From the NCBI GenBank assembly GCA_030066685.1, contig JASJBF010000035.1, forward strand, positions 1 through 59,025: DNA of 59,025 nucleotides, in the 5' to 3' direction. Of this stretch, positions 38,287 to 46,096 are shown piece by piece; within the stretch, counting starts at the first letter, position 1; each line of letters begins with the position of its first letter. Position numbers and translations under genes: made by a program. Below the pieces are notes generated by a model. That model saw only the letters and a list, made by a program, of their open reading frames with translations, made no database searches and was not told the origin of the DNA. Origin of the DNA: Kiloniellales bacterium. Its GTDB lineage: Bacteria > Pseudomonadota > Alphaproteobacteria > Kiloniellales > JAKSBE01.

Positions 38287-39243
38287 TCAGGCGTCGGACG
38301 CCGGCGCCGTCCTGCTCAGATGGTCGAACTCGCCGCGCTTCCACTGCCGCAGGTGATAGTGCAGCTGCTCGGCCGCCAAACCGTGCAGCATCAGCCGAAA
38401 GCCGGCGCGCAGGGTCGCGAGCGGGATCATCGGATGGCGGTTGTTGGCGAAGGCGAGGTGAAAGGGGCTGCCCAGCAGCTTGGCGACGTAGATGCCGATG
38501 GTCTCGTCGAGCTGCAGGGAGTTGCTGGCGCGCCAGAAGTCGTTGTTGCGCAGGAAGAGCTGGTAGAGCGGGGTGTAGGCCTCGATCGCGGTCTGCAGGT
38601 CGACGAAGTTCCAGCGCCCCTCCGGCATGGCCTCGATGGGAAACTCGGCGTCGGTGATGGTCCGGAAGTTCAGCTTGCCGCGCGGCGCCAGGTCCTTGCC
38701 CTGGCGGCGCAGGTGGGCGCTGAGCTGGGCGATGAAGATGAAGATGTTGAGGTCGTGCTGGAGGAAGACGTCGTCGATCAGATCCTCCAGGGTGTTGGGA
38801 TGCAGCGGCACCGTGTCCGCCTTGAAGCCGGGCACGTTGTCGGCGATGAAGGCCAGGATCTCGCTGCCGATGTGGAAGTGGCGCAGGATCAGGTAGTTCG
38901 CCTCGGGCGTGACGAAGGTCTTGAGGCCCCAGTAGATCAGCCTGTGCAGGCGGGCCGAGGAATGCCAGCGGTTGGGGATCAGGATCCGGACCACGGTGTT
39001 GAGGATGATGAAGGCCCGCGCGACGGGCCGCACGAAGGGCAGCAGTCGGGCCCGCGACGGCCGGCGCATCGAGCGCAGCAGCGCCGCCTTCGCCGAATCG
39101 TCGATCGGGATGCTGCGGTCCAGGTAGAGCGTCAGCCAGGGATCGGGATCGGAGAGCTCCAGGGTCGCCGGGTCGAAGTCCGGCGGGAAGGGCCCGGCCG
39201 CCAGCTCGGCGACCCGCCCGGAGTCCCGCTTGCGTCTGCTCAT
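38287..39243 (-). CDS. unknown protein of the ketosynthase operon
   Basis: A 318-residue protein I do not recognise. A hydrophobic patch (ARAFIILNTVVRILIPN, about residues 75-91) could be membrane-associated. Several His clusters (LRHFHIG, QLHYHLRQW) and acidic/His helices would suit a metal site but no known motif fits. Its ATG overlaps the ketosynthase-fusion stop (ATGA), so expression is tightly coupled and a role in the same pathway is likely. Normal codon use for the region. Confidence 0.75.
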   Translation of the reverse strand: MSRRKRDSGRVAELAAGPFPPDFDPATLELSDPDPWLTLYLDRSIPIDDSAKAALLRSMRRPSRARLLPFVRPVARAFIILNTVVRILIPNRWHSSARLHRLIYWGLKTFVTPEANYLILRHFHIGSEILAFIADNVPGFKADTVPLHPNTLEDLIDDVFLQHDLNIFIFIAQLSAHLRRQGKDLAPRGKLNFRTITDAEFPIEAMPEGRWNFVDLQTAIEAYTPLYQLFLRNNDFWRASNSLQLDETIGIYVAKLLGSPFHLAFANNRHPMIPLATLRAGFRLMLHGLAAEQLHYHLRQWKRGEFDHLSRTAPASDA

Positions 39244-41144
39244 GTCTTGCCCAACTCCTCAAGCTGCAAGCGATAGAGCCGCGCCGTGACCTTGGCGGTC
39301 TTGACGATGTCCCTGACCAGCTGCGGCGTCAGGATGCCGCTGTCGAAGGCCGCCCACATCTTATCCAGGTGCCGGTCGTCGTTGTCGCCGTGGTAGAGCA
39401 GGAAGCTGACCTGTTCCGGCGACAGGCCGAGCTGGTCCTGGAAGGCCTGGCCCCACTTCAGGGCGAGGCGGTTGCCCAGGCCCTCGATGATGAACATGGC
39501 GCCCAGGAGGTCGATGGGGTTCTCGCGGCTGGCCTTGTGGAACATCCAGGCCGAGAGCGCCTCGGAGCCGATGTTCTTCTCGGCACTCTGGATCTCTTCC
39601 AGGCGGCCGCCGACCGCGACGTAGTTGCGCTCCAGCATCTGGAAGTCGCGGTGCTCCTCGTGGGCGTGGCCGAGGAAGGTCGAGCGCAGGTCGAAGCCCT
39701 CGGCGGTGATGTTGGAGGCGGCGCGGGCGATCCAGCGCGCGCCCTCGACGACCTGCTGGCGCAGGTTCAAGAGCACCAGCTTGTAGTCCTCGAGGCGCAG
39801 CTTGCCCCGGTTCAGCTTGTCGATGACCGGGACCCGGTTGAGCTCGGCCTCGAAGTCGGACCAGACCAGGGTCAGCTGCCGGATCAGCGAGGCCTTGAGC
39901 TCGGCGGCCGAGGGCGCTTCCCCCGCGGTCGCCGGCACGGCGGAAATCGGGACGGTCTCGACCCCAGCGCCCTTGGCCTCGGCCTCTTCGGGCCCGACCA
40001 CGGTCAGCAGCATGGTCGCGACGATAAAGCGGCCGCTCTCCGGGACCACGCAGAGGATCTGCTGGCCCGGCGCCAGCGCCCGCTCGTTGAAGAGCTCCTC
40101 GAGCATGATGAAGATCGAGGCCGAGCCGGTGTTGCCCTTGCTGGCCAGGTTGGTGAAGAGCCGGTCCTCGTCGATGGGACAGCCGGCCTCGGCCGCGGCC
40201 CGGATCGTCTTGCCGCGGAAGACCTCCGAGGAGAAGTGGTAGAGGGCGTGGTCGACCGCCGCGGGATCGATGCGGCCGGCCTCGACCAGCTCGAAGTAGC
40301 GGCGCACCCCGAGCAGGACGATGTTGTCCAGCAGCTTGAGGTCCTGGCGCAGGTGGAAGGCGCCGTCGGCCACGGCCTCCTGCAGGCTGGGGTAGTTGCT
40401 CCAGGGCAGGCCGGGGCGGTTGCCGCCGGTCTTCAGCGCGCCGCCGTACATGCAGGTCTCGAAGCGGCCGGCGTAGGACACCAGGTCGACGAACTCGACC
40501 CGCAGCGACAAGCCCTGGCGGTTCGGCCGGTCCTCCAGGACCATGGCGCCGGCGCCGTCGGAGAGCATCCAGCGCAGGAACTCGCTGTCGGTGCTGGTCT
40601 CGGCGCCCTGCAGGTAGCCGGCGCGCAGGAACCGGCTGGCGAACTCGGAGGCGCAGACCAAGCCGTTGCGCCGCTGGCCGCCGAGGATGTTCGACCAGGC
40701 CGACTTCACCGCCATCATGCCGCTGGCGCAGAAGCTAAGGAAAGAGGCGATCTCGGCCTGAGGCAGGCCCAGCTCGCCCTGGACCTGGCTGGCGAAGCCG
40801 GGGGCCAGGAGGTCGCCCTGGGAGGAGGCGGCGGCGAGCATCTCCAGCTCGCCCAGAGTCAGCTCGCTGCGGCCCAACGCGTCGCGCGCCGCCGCGGCGG
40901 CCATGCCGGCGTTGCTGTGCAGCGGCCGGCCCTCCCGGTCGAGCGCGTAGTGGCGGGTGGCGATGCCGTTCTGCTGCAGCGCCTTGTTCTTGATCCGCCG
41001 CTGCCGGGCGTCGAGGGGGCCGAGGAAGCCCTCGACCGCGTCATTGCCGACCGGCGCGCCCGGCAGGAACTTGCCCAGAGCGGTGATGTAGGCCCGCCGG
41101 TCGCCGCTCGCCTCGACGGGCCTGATCAGGGCGCCGGCGGTCAC
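39240..41144 (-). CDS. StlD/DarB-type beta-ketoacyl synthase III fused to a haem-oxygenase-like diiron domain
   Basis: A 634-residue two-domain enzyme. Residues about 18-385 are a FabH-fold ketosynthase starting YITALGKFLPGAPVGNDAVE, the signature opening of the StlD/DarB family (dialkylresorcinol and cyclohexanedione synthases). The Cys-His-Asn triad is visible: Cys 139 (SFCASG), His 303 (LYHFSS), Asn 338 (KGNTGS). Residues about 415-634 are an all-helical 'iron-containing redox enzyme' domain with candidate ligands Glu 468, HEEH at 495-498, Glu 554 and DDRH at 589-592, like haem-oxygenase-like diiron oxidases (UndA relatives). It would condense acyl chains and then oxidise or cleave the product. 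GTG start overlaps the acyl-ligase stop (GTGA). Confidence 0.85.
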   Translation of the reverse strand: MTAGALIRPVEASGDRRAYITALGKFLPGAPVGNDAVEGFLGPLDARQRRIKNKALQQNGIATRHYALDREGRPLHSNAGMAAAAARDALGRSELTLGELEMLAAASSQGDLLAPGFASQVQGELGLPQAEIASFLSFCASGMMAVKSAWSNILGGQRRNGLVCASEFASRFLRAGYLQGAETSTDSEFLRWMLSDGAGAMVLEDRPNRQGLSLRVEFVDLVSYAGRFETCMYGGALKTGGNRPGLPWSNYPSLQEAVADGAFHLRQDLKLLDNIVLLGVRRYFELVEAGRIDPAAVDHALYHFSSEVFRGKTIRAAAEAGCPIDEDRLFTNLASKGNTGSASIFIMLEELFNERALAPGQQILCVVPESGRFIVATMLLTVVGPEEAEAKGAGVETVPISAVPATAGEAPSAAELKASLIRQLTLVWSDFEAELNRVPVIDKLNRGKLRLEDYKLVLLNLRQQVVEGARWIARAASNITAEGFDLRSTFLGHAHEEHRDFQMLERNYVAVGGRLEEIQSAEKNIGSEALSAWMFHKASRENPIDLLGAMFIIEGLGNRLALKWGQAFQDQLGLSPEQVSFLLYHGDNDDRHLDKMWAAFDSGILTPQLVRDIVKTAKVTARLYRLQLEELGKT

Positions 41145-44100
41145 GCGGCCGCCTCGCCCAGGACTTCCCGGCGCGCCAGGGTCGTGGCCCCGACGTAGTC
41201 GGTCTTGCCGGTGCCCAGGACCGGAAGTCGCTTCACCGGCAGCACGGTCTTGGGAACCATGAGCTCGGTCGCGCCCTGGCTGCGGGCCCAGTCGCGCAGG
41301 ACCGGCAGCGCCGCGTCCTCCTGCTCGGTCACCAGGATGAGCTGCTCGCCCTTGCGCGCATCGGGCAGGCTGACCACGGCGTGCAGGCTGTCGGGCCAGA
41401 GGCCGCCGGCCAGGGTTTCGACCGCCGAGAGCGAGACCATCTCGCCGGCGATCTTGGCGAAGCGCTTGGCCCGGCCGAGGATGCGGATGTAGCCCTCGGC
41501 GTCGATGTCGACGATGTCGCCTGTGTCGTACCAGCCCTCGGGCGGGGGCTCGAGCTGCCCGGGGTTCTCGGCCCGCAGGTAGCCGAGCATGACGTTGGGG
41601 CCGGAGACCGAGAGGCGCTGTCCGTCCTCGATGCCCGGGACCGGCTCGAGCCGCGCCTCCATGCCGGGCAGCAGACGGCCGACCGTGCCGGCCTTGAAGT
41701 TCATCGGCGTGTTGACCGCCAGGACCGGCGCGCATTCGGTGGCGCCGTAGCCCTCGAGGATGCGCTTGCCGAACTTCTCCGCCCAGGTGCGGTGGGTCTC
41801 CTCGCGAATCTTCTCGGCACCCGCGAAGATGTGGCGCAGGGCGTAGAAGTCGTAAGGGTGCGCGACCCGGGCGTAGCCGGTCAGGAAGGTGTCGGTGCCG
41901 AAGAGGATGGTCGCGTTGATGGCGTAGGCGATCTCCGGGACGATGCGGTAGTGCAGCGGCGAGGGATAGAGGAAGGTCCGGGTCCCGGCGAAGAGCGGCA
42001 GCAGCATCCCGCCGGTCAGGCCGAAGGCGTGGAAGACCGGCAGGGCGTTGAGGACCACGTCGGTAGGGTTGAAATCGACCCGGGCCGCCAGCTGGTTGCA
42101 GTTGGCCAGGATGTTGGCGTGACTGAGCACCACGCCCTTGGGCGTGCCCTCGGAGCCGGAGGTGAAGAGGACCACCGCCGGCGAATCGGGATCGCGGCTC
42201 GCCTTGTGCAGGCCGAAGCGCAGCAGGACCTTCCGCCACAGGCCGAGCAGCTTGTCGCCCAGACCCAGGCTCTCGCGCAGGTCCTCCAGGTAGACCAGCT
42301 CGACCTGCTCGGCGAGGGCGGCCGCCGTCTCCCCCAGGCGCGCCATCTCGATGAAGCGGCGCGAGGTGTAGACGGTCTCGATCTCCGCCGCCTTGCAGGC
42401 CGAAAGCAGGTTCGCCGGCCCGGCGGTGAAGTTGAGCATGGCGGGCACCCGGCCGAAGGCCTGGAGCCCGAAGAAGGTGACCGCGACCGCGGCGGTGTTG
42501 GGCAGCAGCACGCCGGCCATGCCGCCGCGCGGCACCTTGCGCGCCATGCGCGCGCCCAGCACCAGGCTGCCCAGCGCCAGCCGGTCGTAGTGCAGCGGCT
42601 CGCGGTTGATGTCCTCCAGCACCTCGTGCCCGCCGCCCTGGACATAGCGCGCTTCGAGCAGGGCCTCGAAGAGGCTGCGGGCCTTGCGGCTCTGGGTCTC
42701 GAAGATCATCTGCGACATGACGTCGTAGAGCTGCCGGCCGATCGCCTGGCGCCGGCGCCGGCCCTTGAGGTCGTCCGGGACCTCGAAGCGGCGGGGCGCC
42801 AAGACGGTCACGGTGATCTTGGGGAAGAAGCGCCGGCGCAGCTTGCCCTTGAGGCGGGTGAAATGGCTGTGCTGGGCGCCCTCGATCCGCACCGGGACCA
42901 CGGTCGCGCCGGCCTTGTCGGCGACCATGCCCGGGCCGTCGTAAACCTTCATCAGGGAGCCGGTCACGGTCAGGCGGCCCTCGGGGAAGATCACGCAGTG
43001 CTTGCCCTTGGCGACCTCGCGGATCAGCGCCTTGGTCGAGAGCGGCCTGGTCGGGTCCATGGGAAAGGCATCGACCAGCTTCATGAAGGGCCGCACCCAC
43101 CAGCGCCCGGCCATCTGGGTATCGATGGCGAACATCGGCCGCCCGGGCAGCAGCGCGGCCAGCAGCGGGCCGTCCAGGAAGGAGGCGTGGTTGACCACGA
43201 TGACCGCGGTGTCGCCGGCGGCCTTGATGTGCTCCAGCCCGCGGACCTCGGCCCGGTAGAGCAGCTTAAAGACCGCCGAGATGAAGCCCTTGATCACGTG
43301 GTGCGACAGCAGCCGGCAGGCCTTGACCGCGACCAGCACGTTGGCGAGCGCGGTGACCAGGAAGATCTCCGCGATGCTCAGGCCGAGCTCGAGCAGCAGG
43401 GCGCAGGCCCCCGCCGCCGCGACCATGAAGAGCGCGTTCATCACGTTGTTGCTGGCGATGACCCGGGCGCGGGCTTCCGGCGCGGCCTCGCTCTGCAGGA
43501 TCGCGTAGAGCGGCACGATGAAGTAGCCCGAGGCGGCCGAGAGCAGAAGCAGGTCGACCAGGACCCGCCAGGCGCCGGGCGAGGCCAGGTAGGCGGCCAG
43601 GCCCAGCTCGGCGCCGCTGGGCGCCAGGCGGGTGCTGGCGAAGTAGAGGTCGAGGGAGAAGATCGCCATGCCGAGTGCGCCGAAGGGCACGGTGCGGGCC
43701 GAGATCTCGCCCTTCAGCAGGCGCTCGCAGAGCACCGAGCCGACTCCGATGCCGACCGAGAAGACCGTCAGGAAGAGGGTGAGCACGTCCTCGTTGCCGC
43801 CGAGCTCGGCCTTCACGTAGCTCGGCGCCTGGGTCAGGAAGACAAAGCCGACCAGCCAGAACCAGGAGATGCCGAGGATCGACAGGAAGATCGACTCCTT
43901 CTCGGCCGAGTAGCGCAGCAGCCTCACCGTCTCGCCGAGGACGTTGTAGTTGACCTTGAGCTGGGGCGCGGCCGCCGGCGCCCGGGGAATCGCCAGGCTG
44001 GCCAGCCAGCCGGCCGCGGCGACGGCCAGGATCATACCGATCACCAGGTCGCTGCCGTCACCGCGCAGGATGACCTGGGTGCCGGCGATCATGCCGAAGA

Positions 44101-44572
44101 GGATCGCCAGGGAGGTGCCGGCTTCGATCACCGCGTTGCCGGCGACCAGCTCTTCCCGCTTCAGGTGGTCCGGCAGGATTCCGTACTTCAACGGGCCGAA
44201 GAAGGTCGACTGCAGGCCCATGAAGAACAGCACGGCGAGCAGGAACTCCGGCTGCTGCGTCGCGAAGCCGAAGGCGGCCAGGCCCATGATGCCGACCTCG
44301 AGCAGCTTCACTCCCCGGATCATGCGCGCCTTGTCGAACTTGTCGGCGAGTTGGCCGGCGGTTGCCGAGAAGAGGAAGAAGGGCAGGATGAAGAGGCCGC
44401 CGGCCACGGTGACCAGCAGCTCGCCCTGCCCGGGCTCCTGCACCAGGCGGAAGGTGATCAGGGTGACCAGCGCGGTCTTGAAGAGGTTGTCGTTGAAGGC
44501 GCCCAGGAACTGGGTGACGAAGAGCGGCAGGAAGCGCCGGTTCCCCAGGATCTGATAGGCTGACTTCGACAT
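41141..44572 (-). CDS. LplT-PlsC-Aas fusion: lysophospholipid transporter, acyltransferase and acyl-ACP/CoA ligase
   Basis: A 1143-residue three-part protein. Residues about 1-410 are an MFS transporter of the LplT type (FLGAFNDNLFKTALVT near the start). Residues about 440-620 are a PlsC acyltransferase with NHASFLD (HX4D, near 459) and FPEGR (near 529). Residues about 650-1140 are an adenylate-forming ligase with TSGSEGTPKG (near 804), GYGATECAP, YDTGD (near 1014) and GRAKRFAKIAGEM. The architecture is known from proteobacteria and serves lysophospholipid re-acylation. Here it could activate fatty acids for the downstream ketosynthase. ATG at 44572 follows AAGGGGGCAACGAG; the GTG at 44593, overlapping the upstream stop, is the alternative. 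Confidence 0.9.
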   Translation of the reverse strand: MSKSAYQILGNRRFLPLFVTQFLGAFNDNLFKTALVTLITFRLVQEPGQGELLVTVAGGLFILPFFLFSATAGQLADKFDKARMIRGVKLLEVGIMGLAAFGFATQQPEFLLAVLFFMGLQSTFFGPLKYGILPDHLKREELVAGNAVIEAGTSLAILFGMIAGTQVILRGDGSDLVIGMILAVAAAGWLASLAIPRAPAAAPQLKVNYNVLGETVRLLRYSAEKESIFLSILGISWFWLVGFVFLTQAPSYVKAELGGNEDVLTLFLTVFSVGIGVGSVLCERLLKGEISARTVPFGALGMAIFSLDLYFASTRLAPSGAELGLAAYLASPGAWRVLVDLLLLSAASGYFIVPLYAILQSEAAPEARARVIASNNVMNALFMVAAAGACALLLELGLSIAEIFLVTALANVLVAVKACRLLSHHVIKGFISAVFKLLYRAEVRGLEHIKAAGDTAVIVVNHASFLDGPLLAALLPGRPMFAIDTQMAGRWWVRPFMKLVDAFPMDPTRPLSTKALIREVAKGKHCVIFPEGRLTVTGSLMKVYDGPGMVADKAGATVVPVRIEGAQHSHFTRLKGKLRRRFFPKITVTVLAPRRFEVPDDLKGRRRRQAIGRQLYDVMSQMIFETQSRKARSLFEALLEARYVQGGGHEVLEDINREPLHYDRLALGSLVLGARMARKVPRGGMAGVLLPNTAAVAVTFFGLQAFGRVPAMLNFTAGPANLLSACKAAEIETVYTSRRFIEMARLGETAAALAEQVELVYLEDLRESLGLGDKLLGLWRKVLLRFGLHKASRDPDSPAVVLFTSGSEGTPKGVVLSHANILANCNQLAARVDFNPTDVVLNALPVFHAFGLTGGMLLPLFAGTRTFLYPSPLHYRIVPEIAYAINATILFGTDTFLTGYARVAHPYDFYALRHIFAGAEKIREETHRTWAEKFGKRILEGYGATECAPVLAVNTPMNFKAGTVGRLLPGMEARLEPVPGIEDGQRLSVSGPNVMLGYLRAENPGQLEPPPEGWYDTGDIVDIDAEGYIRILGRAKRFAKIAGEMVSLSAVETLAGGLWPDSLHAVVSLPDARKGEQLILVTEQEDAALPVLRDWARSQGATELMVPKTVLPVKRLPVLGTGKTDYVGATTLARREVLGEAAA

Positions 44573-44589
44573 CTCGTTGCCCCCTTGGC

Positions 44590-45519
44590 TCACAAATCGT
44601 CGCGCGTCTCGGCCGGTCCGAGCCGGCCGTGATCGAGGAAGCTGCGGGTCGCCGCGATGGCGTCGCCGTCCTCAGCTATGAAGGTATGCAACGCGTCGAC
44701 GCGCAAGGCCGCATCGCCGCCCTTGAGCGGCGTCTCGGCGACCCGGACCACGCCGTCGTCGTCGCCCGGCAGCAGCGGGTTGTAGCCCCGGCCCGCGCAG
44801 CAGCCGCCGGCGATGATGCCGAGCGCGACCTCGTCGGGCAGCGCCGCCGGCAGCACCTTGCCTTCGGCCAGGTCCGCAAAGCTCGGCCCGAGCAGGAAGC
44901 GCGCAGGCGTCCAGCGGTCGAGCTTGCGGGCGATCAGCGCCCCCTGGTTGGGCGGCGCCAGCATGACGACCGGGCCCAGGGCCACCCGCTTGCGCCAAGC
45001 CGGATCCTGGGCCAGGGCCGCGCGCAGCACCAGCGCCCCGAGGGAATGGGTGACGAAGGAGACCTTGTTCACCCGCGGATGCTGGTCGAGCAGAGCATTC
45101 AGCCAAAGGCCGTGGGATTCTAGGTCCCGGGTTACGCTGGGATAGCGCAGGGCGACAACCAGGCGGCCCTCGGAATCCAGCGCCGGCTTCAGGTCGCCGA
45201 ACATCGCCGGCGTCCGGCCCAGGCCGTGCAGCAGGATCACCAGCTCGCCGGGCGCCGCCTCGGGGCGCAAGGCCGCGTAGGCGCCCCCGCAGGCTTCGCC
45301 GAACCCGCGCTCGACCACCTCGCCGGCCGGATCGAGGACCCGGCAGCGTCCGCTGACGGCCTGGGCCTGGAGACGCCAGCCCGCCGAGAGCGCCCGGTCC
45401 TGCCAGAGCTGGGTCTCGGCAAAGACCAGGAGGCCGCCGGCGGCGAGAAGCAGAACCGCGAGAAGGCCGCGGCGCAGCCAGCGGCTCGGCTTGGGGCCAG
45501 GGCGGGTCGGCGCGGCCAT
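44590..45519 (-). CDS. membrane-anchored alpha/beta hydrolase, lipase-like
   Basis: A 309-residue alpha/beta hydrolase with an N-terminal membrane anchor (LLAVLLLAAGGLLVFAE, about residues 19-35). The oxyanion-hole segment VILLHGLGRTP and nucleophile elbow FVTHSLGALV are clear; a late His in ALHTF (near residue 279) may complete the triad. The fold is closest to short lipases and PGAP1-like hydrolases. It follows the TetR gene by four bases and precedes the LplT-PlsC-Aas gene, so it may release fatty acids for the pathway. Confidence 0.85.
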   Translation of the reverse strand: MAAPTRPGPKPSRWLRRGLLAVLLLAAGGLLVFAETQLWQDRALSAGWRLQAQAVSGRCRVLDPAGEVVERGFGEACGGAYAALRPEAAPGELVILLHGLGRTPAMFGDLKPALDSEGRLVVALRYPSVTRDLESHGLWLNALLDQHPRVNKVSFVTHSLGALVLRAALAQDPAWRKRVALGPVVMLAPPNQGALIARKLDRWTPARFLLGPSFADLAEGKVLPAALPDEVALGIIAGGCCAGRGYNPLLPGDDDGVVRVAETPLKGGDAALRVDALHTFIAEDGDAIAATRSFLDHGRLGPAETRDDL

Positions 45520-45523
45520 GGAG

Positions 45524-46096
45524 CTATGCCGATCCGCCGAGGGTCAGCCAGCAGGCCTCGCTGAGGCGCTCCGAGAGCGCCGTCATCGGCTCGCCGATCT
45601 GGCCGTAGACCTTGAAGAGCGCCGGCTGCAGCACGACGCCGAAGACCAGGGCGTTGGCGACATCGGGATCCTGCGCCGGGATCTCGCCGCGCTGGATCGC
45701 ATCCTCGATGACGCCGCGCACGACCCGGACCGGGGTCCGGGCATCTGGCGGCATCTTCTGGATCTCGCCGTGCTGAACCAGGAGCAGGAAGCGGAACATG
45801 TCCGGATCCTCCTCGAAGAGCACGCAGAAAGCGCGGACCATCGCCGCCAGCTTCCGGCGCAGGCCGGTCTCACGGCCCTGGAGCTCGTCGAGCTCGCCGG
45901 CCAGACGCAGGTAGTTGGCCGAGAAGAGCTCGTGCACCATGGCGTCCTTGCCCTCGAAATGCCGATAGATCGCACCCTCGGAAATGCCCGCCCCGGCCGC
46001 GATGTCGCGGGTCGTCGTCTGATCGACGCCCTTCTCGGCGAAGAGCTTGATCGCCGAGGTCTCGATCTTCGCTTTGGTGGCCAAAGCCCGCGGCAT
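45524..46096 (-). CDS. TetR-family transcriptional regulator
   Basis: A 190-residue TetR regulator: N-terminal helix-turn-helix TTRDIAAGAGISEGAIYRHF at about residues 30-49, and a variable ligand-binding C-terminal domain. A perfect dyad, AAGTGA-N4-TCACTT, lies 17 bases upstream of its start (46114-46129), consistent with autorepression of the whole operon. The ligand is probably an acyl chain or acyl-CoA given the downstream genes; that is inference. Confidence 0.93.
   Translation of the reverse strand: MPRALATKAKIETSAIKLFAEKGVDQTTTRDIAAGAGISEGAIYRHFEGKDAMVHELFSANYLRLAGELDELQGRETGLRRKLAAMVRAFCVLFEEDPDMFRFLLLVQHGEIQKMPPDARTPVRVVRGVIEDAIQRGEIPAQDPDVANALVFGVVLQPALFKVYGQIGEPMTALSERLSEACWLTLGGSA

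Follow-up and report, generated by a model that had tools for sequence, protein, structure and literature searches.

The closest described counterparts of the locus analysed here include the DarAB dialkylresorcinol system and the haem-oxygenase-like dimetal oxidases (HDOs). In the former, darB has been described as a 'DAR-cyclase' and darA as a 'DAR-aromatase' (PMC3949708). The products reported for DarB are 4-carboxy-2,5-dialkylcyclohexane-1,3-diones (PMC5515871), and dialkylresorcinol is obtained from darA and darB together (PMC3992019), darA mutants yielding none (PMC6403133). HDOs bind two metal ions, use O2 and include the oxidative decarboxylase UndA. Their canonical motif, E-H-E-H-(D/E)-H, has its first two residues on alpha-1, the second Glu on alpha-2 and the last three residues on alpha-3, and according to the survey in the FlcD paper it is present in about 85% of groups; PqqC and TenA work without a metal (PMC11363339).

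The window, a stretch of 59,025 nucleotides of contig JASJBF010000035.1 from a Kiloniellales bacterium, encodes a protein in which an StlD/DarB-like ketosynthase (KS) is fused to a domain of predicted haem-oxygenase fold (HO). The fusion gene, KS-HO, belongs to a run of minus-strand genes that overlap or lie close together, and its GTG start overlaps the upstream gene by 4 nt. From the head of the run, the features are as follows:

45524..46096, minus strand: TetR-type regulator, head of the gene run (PF00440)
44590..45519, minus strand: possible alpha/beta hydrolase (sub-cut-off matches only; 4-nt overlap with the LplT-Aas-type gene)
41141..44593, minus strand: LplT-Aas-type gene comprising MFS, acyltransferase and AMP ligase parts (NF005291, 1664 bits, cut-off 1349; 4-nt overlap with KS-HO)
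39240..41144, minus strand: KS-HO fusion gene, 634 aa, GTG start (single open frame with homologues)
39993..41096, minus strand: StlD/DarB-like KS domain, residues 17-384 (NF005293, 351 bits; StlD 5gk0; triad C139/H303/N338)
39243..39899, minus strand: HO domain, residues 416-634 (PF14518, structural model, fold matches, conservation)
38287..39243, minus strand: DUF6999 gene, 318 aa (PF22523, 386.8 bits; 4-nt overlap with KS-HO)

The LplT-Aas-type gene was seen beside KS-HO only in close relatives of the window; it is possibly the acyl supplier. That a ketosynthase is fused here to an HO-like domain, as the original prediction held, is borne out by the single open frame, on a strand (minus) that the prediction had left unstated, by a PF14518 match to the C-terminal half above the gathering score (34.2 versus 28.9 bits) and by homologues carrying both halves in other phyla, at 47-57% identity. 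Since such two-halved homologues occur, a chance ORF could be ruled out. Among three close Kiloniellales copies, omega was 0.14-0.18 for the KS half and 0.28-0.36 for the HO half, and the linker was far more variable than either. Constraint acts on both halves, though more weakly on the HO half at this range, and values below 0.4 in both also rule out a decaying pseudogene. Two single relatives, L010 and L080, have broken frames. On the strand opposite the gene lies an open frame of 609 aa (39369-41198, plus strand), which we ascribe to shadowing by the G+C-rich coding sequence.

The N-terminal half is StlD/DarB-like, as had been proposed. Among solved structures it comes closest to StlD (5gk0, E=2.1e-68), Foldseek matched it to 5gk2 (E=5.9e-16), and the Cys-His-Asn triad C139, H303 and N338 is invariant in all 57 aligned KS rows. 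It belongs with the StlD/DarB ketosynthases by sequence, fold and triad, but differs from them in its attached or adjoining HO domain and in falling below both NCBIfam cut-offs (NF005293, the StlD/DarB family, 351.2 bits against a curated 450; NF053539, 294.4 bits against 550). Four other HO-linked KSs scored 360-441 bits with NF005293, and two DarA-linked KSs 504 and 558 bits. By homology, the KS half would condense two acyl units to a 1,3-cyclohexanedione.

As the full-length model, built from 8 rows, was middling (pLDDT 62.5), we modelled the HO half alone (residues 405-634, 9 rows) and obtained a predicted haem-oxygenase bundle with a pLDDT of 86.0 and a pTM of 0.84. The closest solved fold is 3DDE (Z 24.9), a TENA/THI-4-type protein of unknown function from Shewanella denitrificans and the only PDB chain that the HO profile reached by sequence. 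It is followed by CADD (22.9) and by a mostly tied group of PqqC (20.9), TenA (20.8), haem oxygenase (20.1), FlcD and HrmI (both 20.0), UndA (19.4) and BesC (18.9); in the viral fold library nothing matched at E≤0.001. The matches to UndA and the other HDOs support an HDO-like fold, but metal-free PqqC and TenA match equally well, so that the fold alone does not prove a metal.

Conservation was counted over 47 distinct HO sequences, one of them truncated at C-terminal positions, and residues were matched by aligning the sequences to 3DDE and to two canonical relatives (L128 and L132), together with the aligned ranges. H493, E497 and D500 are present in 47/47 sequences, and E554, H585, D589 and H592 in 46/46, the truncated row excepted. 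H498 is found in 46 of the 47, residue 467 is Glu in 33 and Asp in 14, and H495 and E496 vary. The metal site first proposed therefore holds in part: E554 is indeed invariant, as are D589 and H592 in 'DDRH 589-592', and the second half of 'HEEH 495-498' is kept, but its first half is not, the helix carboxylate is residue 467 instead of 468, and the invariant H493, D500 and H585 had been missed.

Read against the canonical motif, the HO half gives E-D-E-H-D-H, which agrees in five of six places and has Asp (D500) at the second place in 47/47 sequences. We place D500 at the position of the canonical His because alpha-1 aligns E-E-H-R-D of the KS-HO-type HO domains against E-E-x-G-H of 3DDE, L128 and L132. 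With the HDOs (UndA, CADD, FlcD, HrmI, BesC; PF14518) the HO half has in common the fold (Z 18.9-22.9), the alpha-1 and alpha-2 Glu and the alpha-3 H-x3-D-x2-H; it differs from them in Asp500 for the alpha-1 His, in the E/D at 467, in the invariant H493 one turn before E497, and in its ketosynthase partner. 3DDE shares His at 493 and Glu at 497 but is unfused and keeps His at the D500 position; L128 and L132 have Tyr at 493. The replaced alpha-1 His and the conservation pattern rule out a plain UndA-type site. The spacing of E467 may resemble that of the extra Glu of SznF. Judged by these residues, the HO half is a putative O2-using metal oxidase, which would bind metal and activate O2. The earlier idea of a condensing enzyme with a built-in oxidase accordingly draws support from the HDO fold, from metal-type residues invariant in 46-47 of 47 sequences and from a pairing kept across phyla, features that also speak against the degenerate scaffold named at the time as the refuting outcome; it is weakened by the departure from the canonical motif and by metal-free folds scoring like UndA. 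PDB entry 3bjd, the FlcD structure, carries the title 'putative 3-oxoacyl-(acyl-carrier-protein) synthase'; that this was carried over from KS-HO fusions is a guess.

We then compared loci. The locus table (n=57) holds 43 loci with KS and HO, 13 with KS and no HO, and one (L114) with HO and DUF6999 only, at a contig edge. KS and HO are fused in 34 of the 43 and encoded by adjacent genes in nine. DUF6999 could be scored in 40 of them, three fused loci being cut too near downstream, and it lies in the flanks of 39, the exception being L089. DUF6999, which the original prediction did not mention, is thus a near-constant third partner, and the proposed search for proteins with the same two domains and for their neighbours has been answered by a pair that is fused or adjacent across phyla. 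In crude clustering of the neighbours, no family besides the module was seen to recur across lineages. Eleven His, Asp, Glu, Arg or Asn residues of DUF6999 (D42, R64, R121, H122, N136, H163, D164, D215, D246, H287 and E292) are invariant in 30/30 rows, and could include a second metal site. Our searches found for DUF6999 neither a solved relative (best PDB match E 0.53) nor any protein of known function related to it by sequence or fold, and no paper in the open-access literature.

The 13 KS loci lacking HO comprise eight with DarA, three Paenibacillales loci without partners, L095 with DUF6999, and L110 at a contig edge. The three Paenibacillales loci (L101, L102 and L113, from genomes G682, G654 and G670) encode a KS with an intact triad and no HO, DUF6999 or DarA nearby; these KSs may work alone. 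In L095 (G483) the KS sits beside DUF6999, and its genome has no HO match at E≤1e-20. As these four loci keep a KS without HO, the KS can do without it.

A first scan had found both halves in 8 of 13 loci (Kiloniellales, Acidobacteria, Archangium, Paenibacillus and cyanobacteria), and because it had matched them, four groups were searched with profile A1, the threshold being E≤1e-20. A KS with an HO, fused or in the next gene, occurred in 42/926 genomes: 6/289 in the window's class, Alphaproteobacteria; 18/195 in Myxococcota, the phylum of Archangium; 10/198 in Paenibacillales, the order of Paenibacillus, with one pair across two contigs; and 8/244 in the cyanobacterial phylum, one of them with an internal stop. 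The Acidobacteria case, and one in Pseudoalteromonas, come from searches outside this set of 926.

'DarA' denotes here a flavodoxin-like protein beside the KS in four Bacteroidetes loci and four others, a name based on gene position and the established darA-darB pairing. It was found beside none of the 43 KS-HO pairs, compared with 8 of the 13 KS-only loci. Genome-wide, DarA profile A3 matched 0/26 KS-HO genomes, including that of the window, and 5 of the 35 genomes searched; these were the five DarA-linked ones, whose loci partly built the profile, and the other four gave no match. The earlier remark that no 'DarA-type cyclase' adjoins the gene is correct, and extends to the whole genome, although the name is not, since darA is the aromatase and darB the cyclase (PMC3949708). 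In a maximum-likelihood KS tree (57 rows, leaving out the short L080 and repeat or partial loci), a 100/100 branch separates the eight DarA-linked KSs from all the rest, namely 35 fused, nine split and five other KSs. The 'fused' state needs seven changes on this tree, in which long branches meet at L049/L053 and at L021/L022, making placement there unsure. Like DarAB, KS-HO pairs a related condensing enzyme with a second, putatively oxidising one; unlike DarAB, in which DarA is encoded beside DarB, it has an HO-fold protein and DUF6999 instead of flavodoxin-like DarA, and the 26 KS-HO genomes searched lack a DarA match.

We propose that KS-HO is a two-step lipid-ring enzyme, whose HO half would oxidise the cyclohexanedione made by the KS to a resorcinol-type lipid in DarA's place, and we put the probability of this reading at about 45%. 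The data themselves show the fusion, the predicted fold, the invariant residues, the module of three genes, the lack of DarA and the division of the KS tree; what the enzyme acts on, its chemistry, whether it holds metal and what DUF6999 does are inferred, as follows. The KS, by homology to DarB, would condense a pair of acyl units to give a 2,5-dialkylcyclohexane-1,3-dione, probably still with its carboxylate. The HO domain, with O2 and a bound metal centre, would then aromatise this product by oxidation, whether or not CO2 is lost, to yield a dialkylresorcinol-type lipid. It would thereby fill the role that flavodoxin-like DarA has in DarAB pathways; DUF6999 would act as a third partner. The reading rests on the homology of the KS to StlD/DarB with an intact triad, on an HO domain with the predicted fold of the O2-using HDOs including UndA, on the occurrence of the pair both fused and as adjacent genes, on the fact that HO and DarA were never seen together and that the KS tree sets DarA-linked KSs apart, and on the cyclohexanediones made by DarB becoming dialkylresorcinol with DarA. 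Of the products first considered, nothing here points to an alkene, and an StlD/DarB-like KS without DarA is better matched by an oxidised ring. Counting against the two-step enzyme are the four loci with a KS and no HO (L101, L102, L113 and L095), the Asp in place of the alpha-1 His, the PqqC and TenA fold matches and a KS score below the StlD/DarB cut-off.

Part of this evidence could be read otherwise. Characterised HDOs act mostly on fatty or amino acids (PMC13108848), cyclohexanediones are signals in their own right (PMC4414361), and desaturase- or hydroxylase-family genes adjoin the KS-HO pair in some myxobacterial loci, all of which would suit an HO domain that acts on the acyl chain before or after condensation (by desaturation, hydroxylation or UndA-like alkene formation), any ring staying a cyclohexanedione. 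We consider this unlikely, as it leaves the mutual exclusion of HO and DarA beside related KSs unexplained. The regular presence of DUF6999 with its own invariant His, Asp and Glu residues raises another option, namely that DUF6999 performs the aromatisation and the HO domain hydroxylates the ring further to a hydroquinone or quinone lipid. Such a division of labour seems to us somewhat less probable again, given that our searches linked DUF6999 to no protein of known function by sequence or fold and that L089 keeps a KS-HO pair with no DUF6999 in its flanks.

The replaced HDO ligand and the Z scores of 19-21 for TenA and PqqC, which share the fold and are metal-free (PMC11363339), might also indicate that the HO half is metal-free and has a purely scaffolding or regulatory part, serving only to hold the KS dimer or its substrate. 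This is improbable, because a scaffold would not need the alpha-3 H-x3-D-x2-H, E554, E497 and the carboxylate at 467, which are kept over several phyla. Returning to the two-step enzyme, its fullest form would be a DarA-independent ring-lipid synthase with an in-built O2-dependent metal oxidase marked by the alpha-1 His-to-Asp change and H493, with DUF6999 as a third, possibly metal-binding enzyme, the module occurring in at least five phyla and perhaps in the laboratory model Caulobacter; we advance this form only tentatively.

The KS-HO fusion is real, conserved and undescribed in the open-access literature searched, where the titles and abstract beginnings of the matches listed contained no description of it. 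An HDO review makes no mention of ketosynthase, fusion, polyketide or resorcinol (PMC13108848). The pairing in several phyla suggests an undescribed way of finishing ring lipids: it predicts a second route to oxidise or aromatise lipids that elsewhere are pigment parts and cell-to-cell signals. It also gives a first lead to the function of DUF6999, and a haem-oxygenase-fold site, altered by nature at one ligand, in which the influence of HDO ligands on reactivity could be tested. Where the two genes are adjacent and unfused, the two activities could be assayed apart. Among 14 control genomes, PF14518 scored in two, PF22523 in one and NF005293 in two, and Caulobacter vibrioides was the only one to score for all three. 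The module is perhaps present there, and if the three genes adjoin, it would be open to ordinary genetics.

One split form lies on a plasmid. Of the 32 records that matched in the plasmid collection, one covers at least 80% of the query, and a Pseudoalteromonas plasmid carries genes for KS, an 'iron-containing redox enzyme' and DUF6999 in a row, the HO protein having no Pfam match at E≤0.01. In Pseudoalteromonas sp. THAF3 (L153, 9433-14541), these three are preceded by a 185-aa protein without Pfam match and followed by a 634-aa protein. A gene for 184-193 aa, similar in size to the 185-aa protein of THAF3, also precedes the KS in L092-L094.
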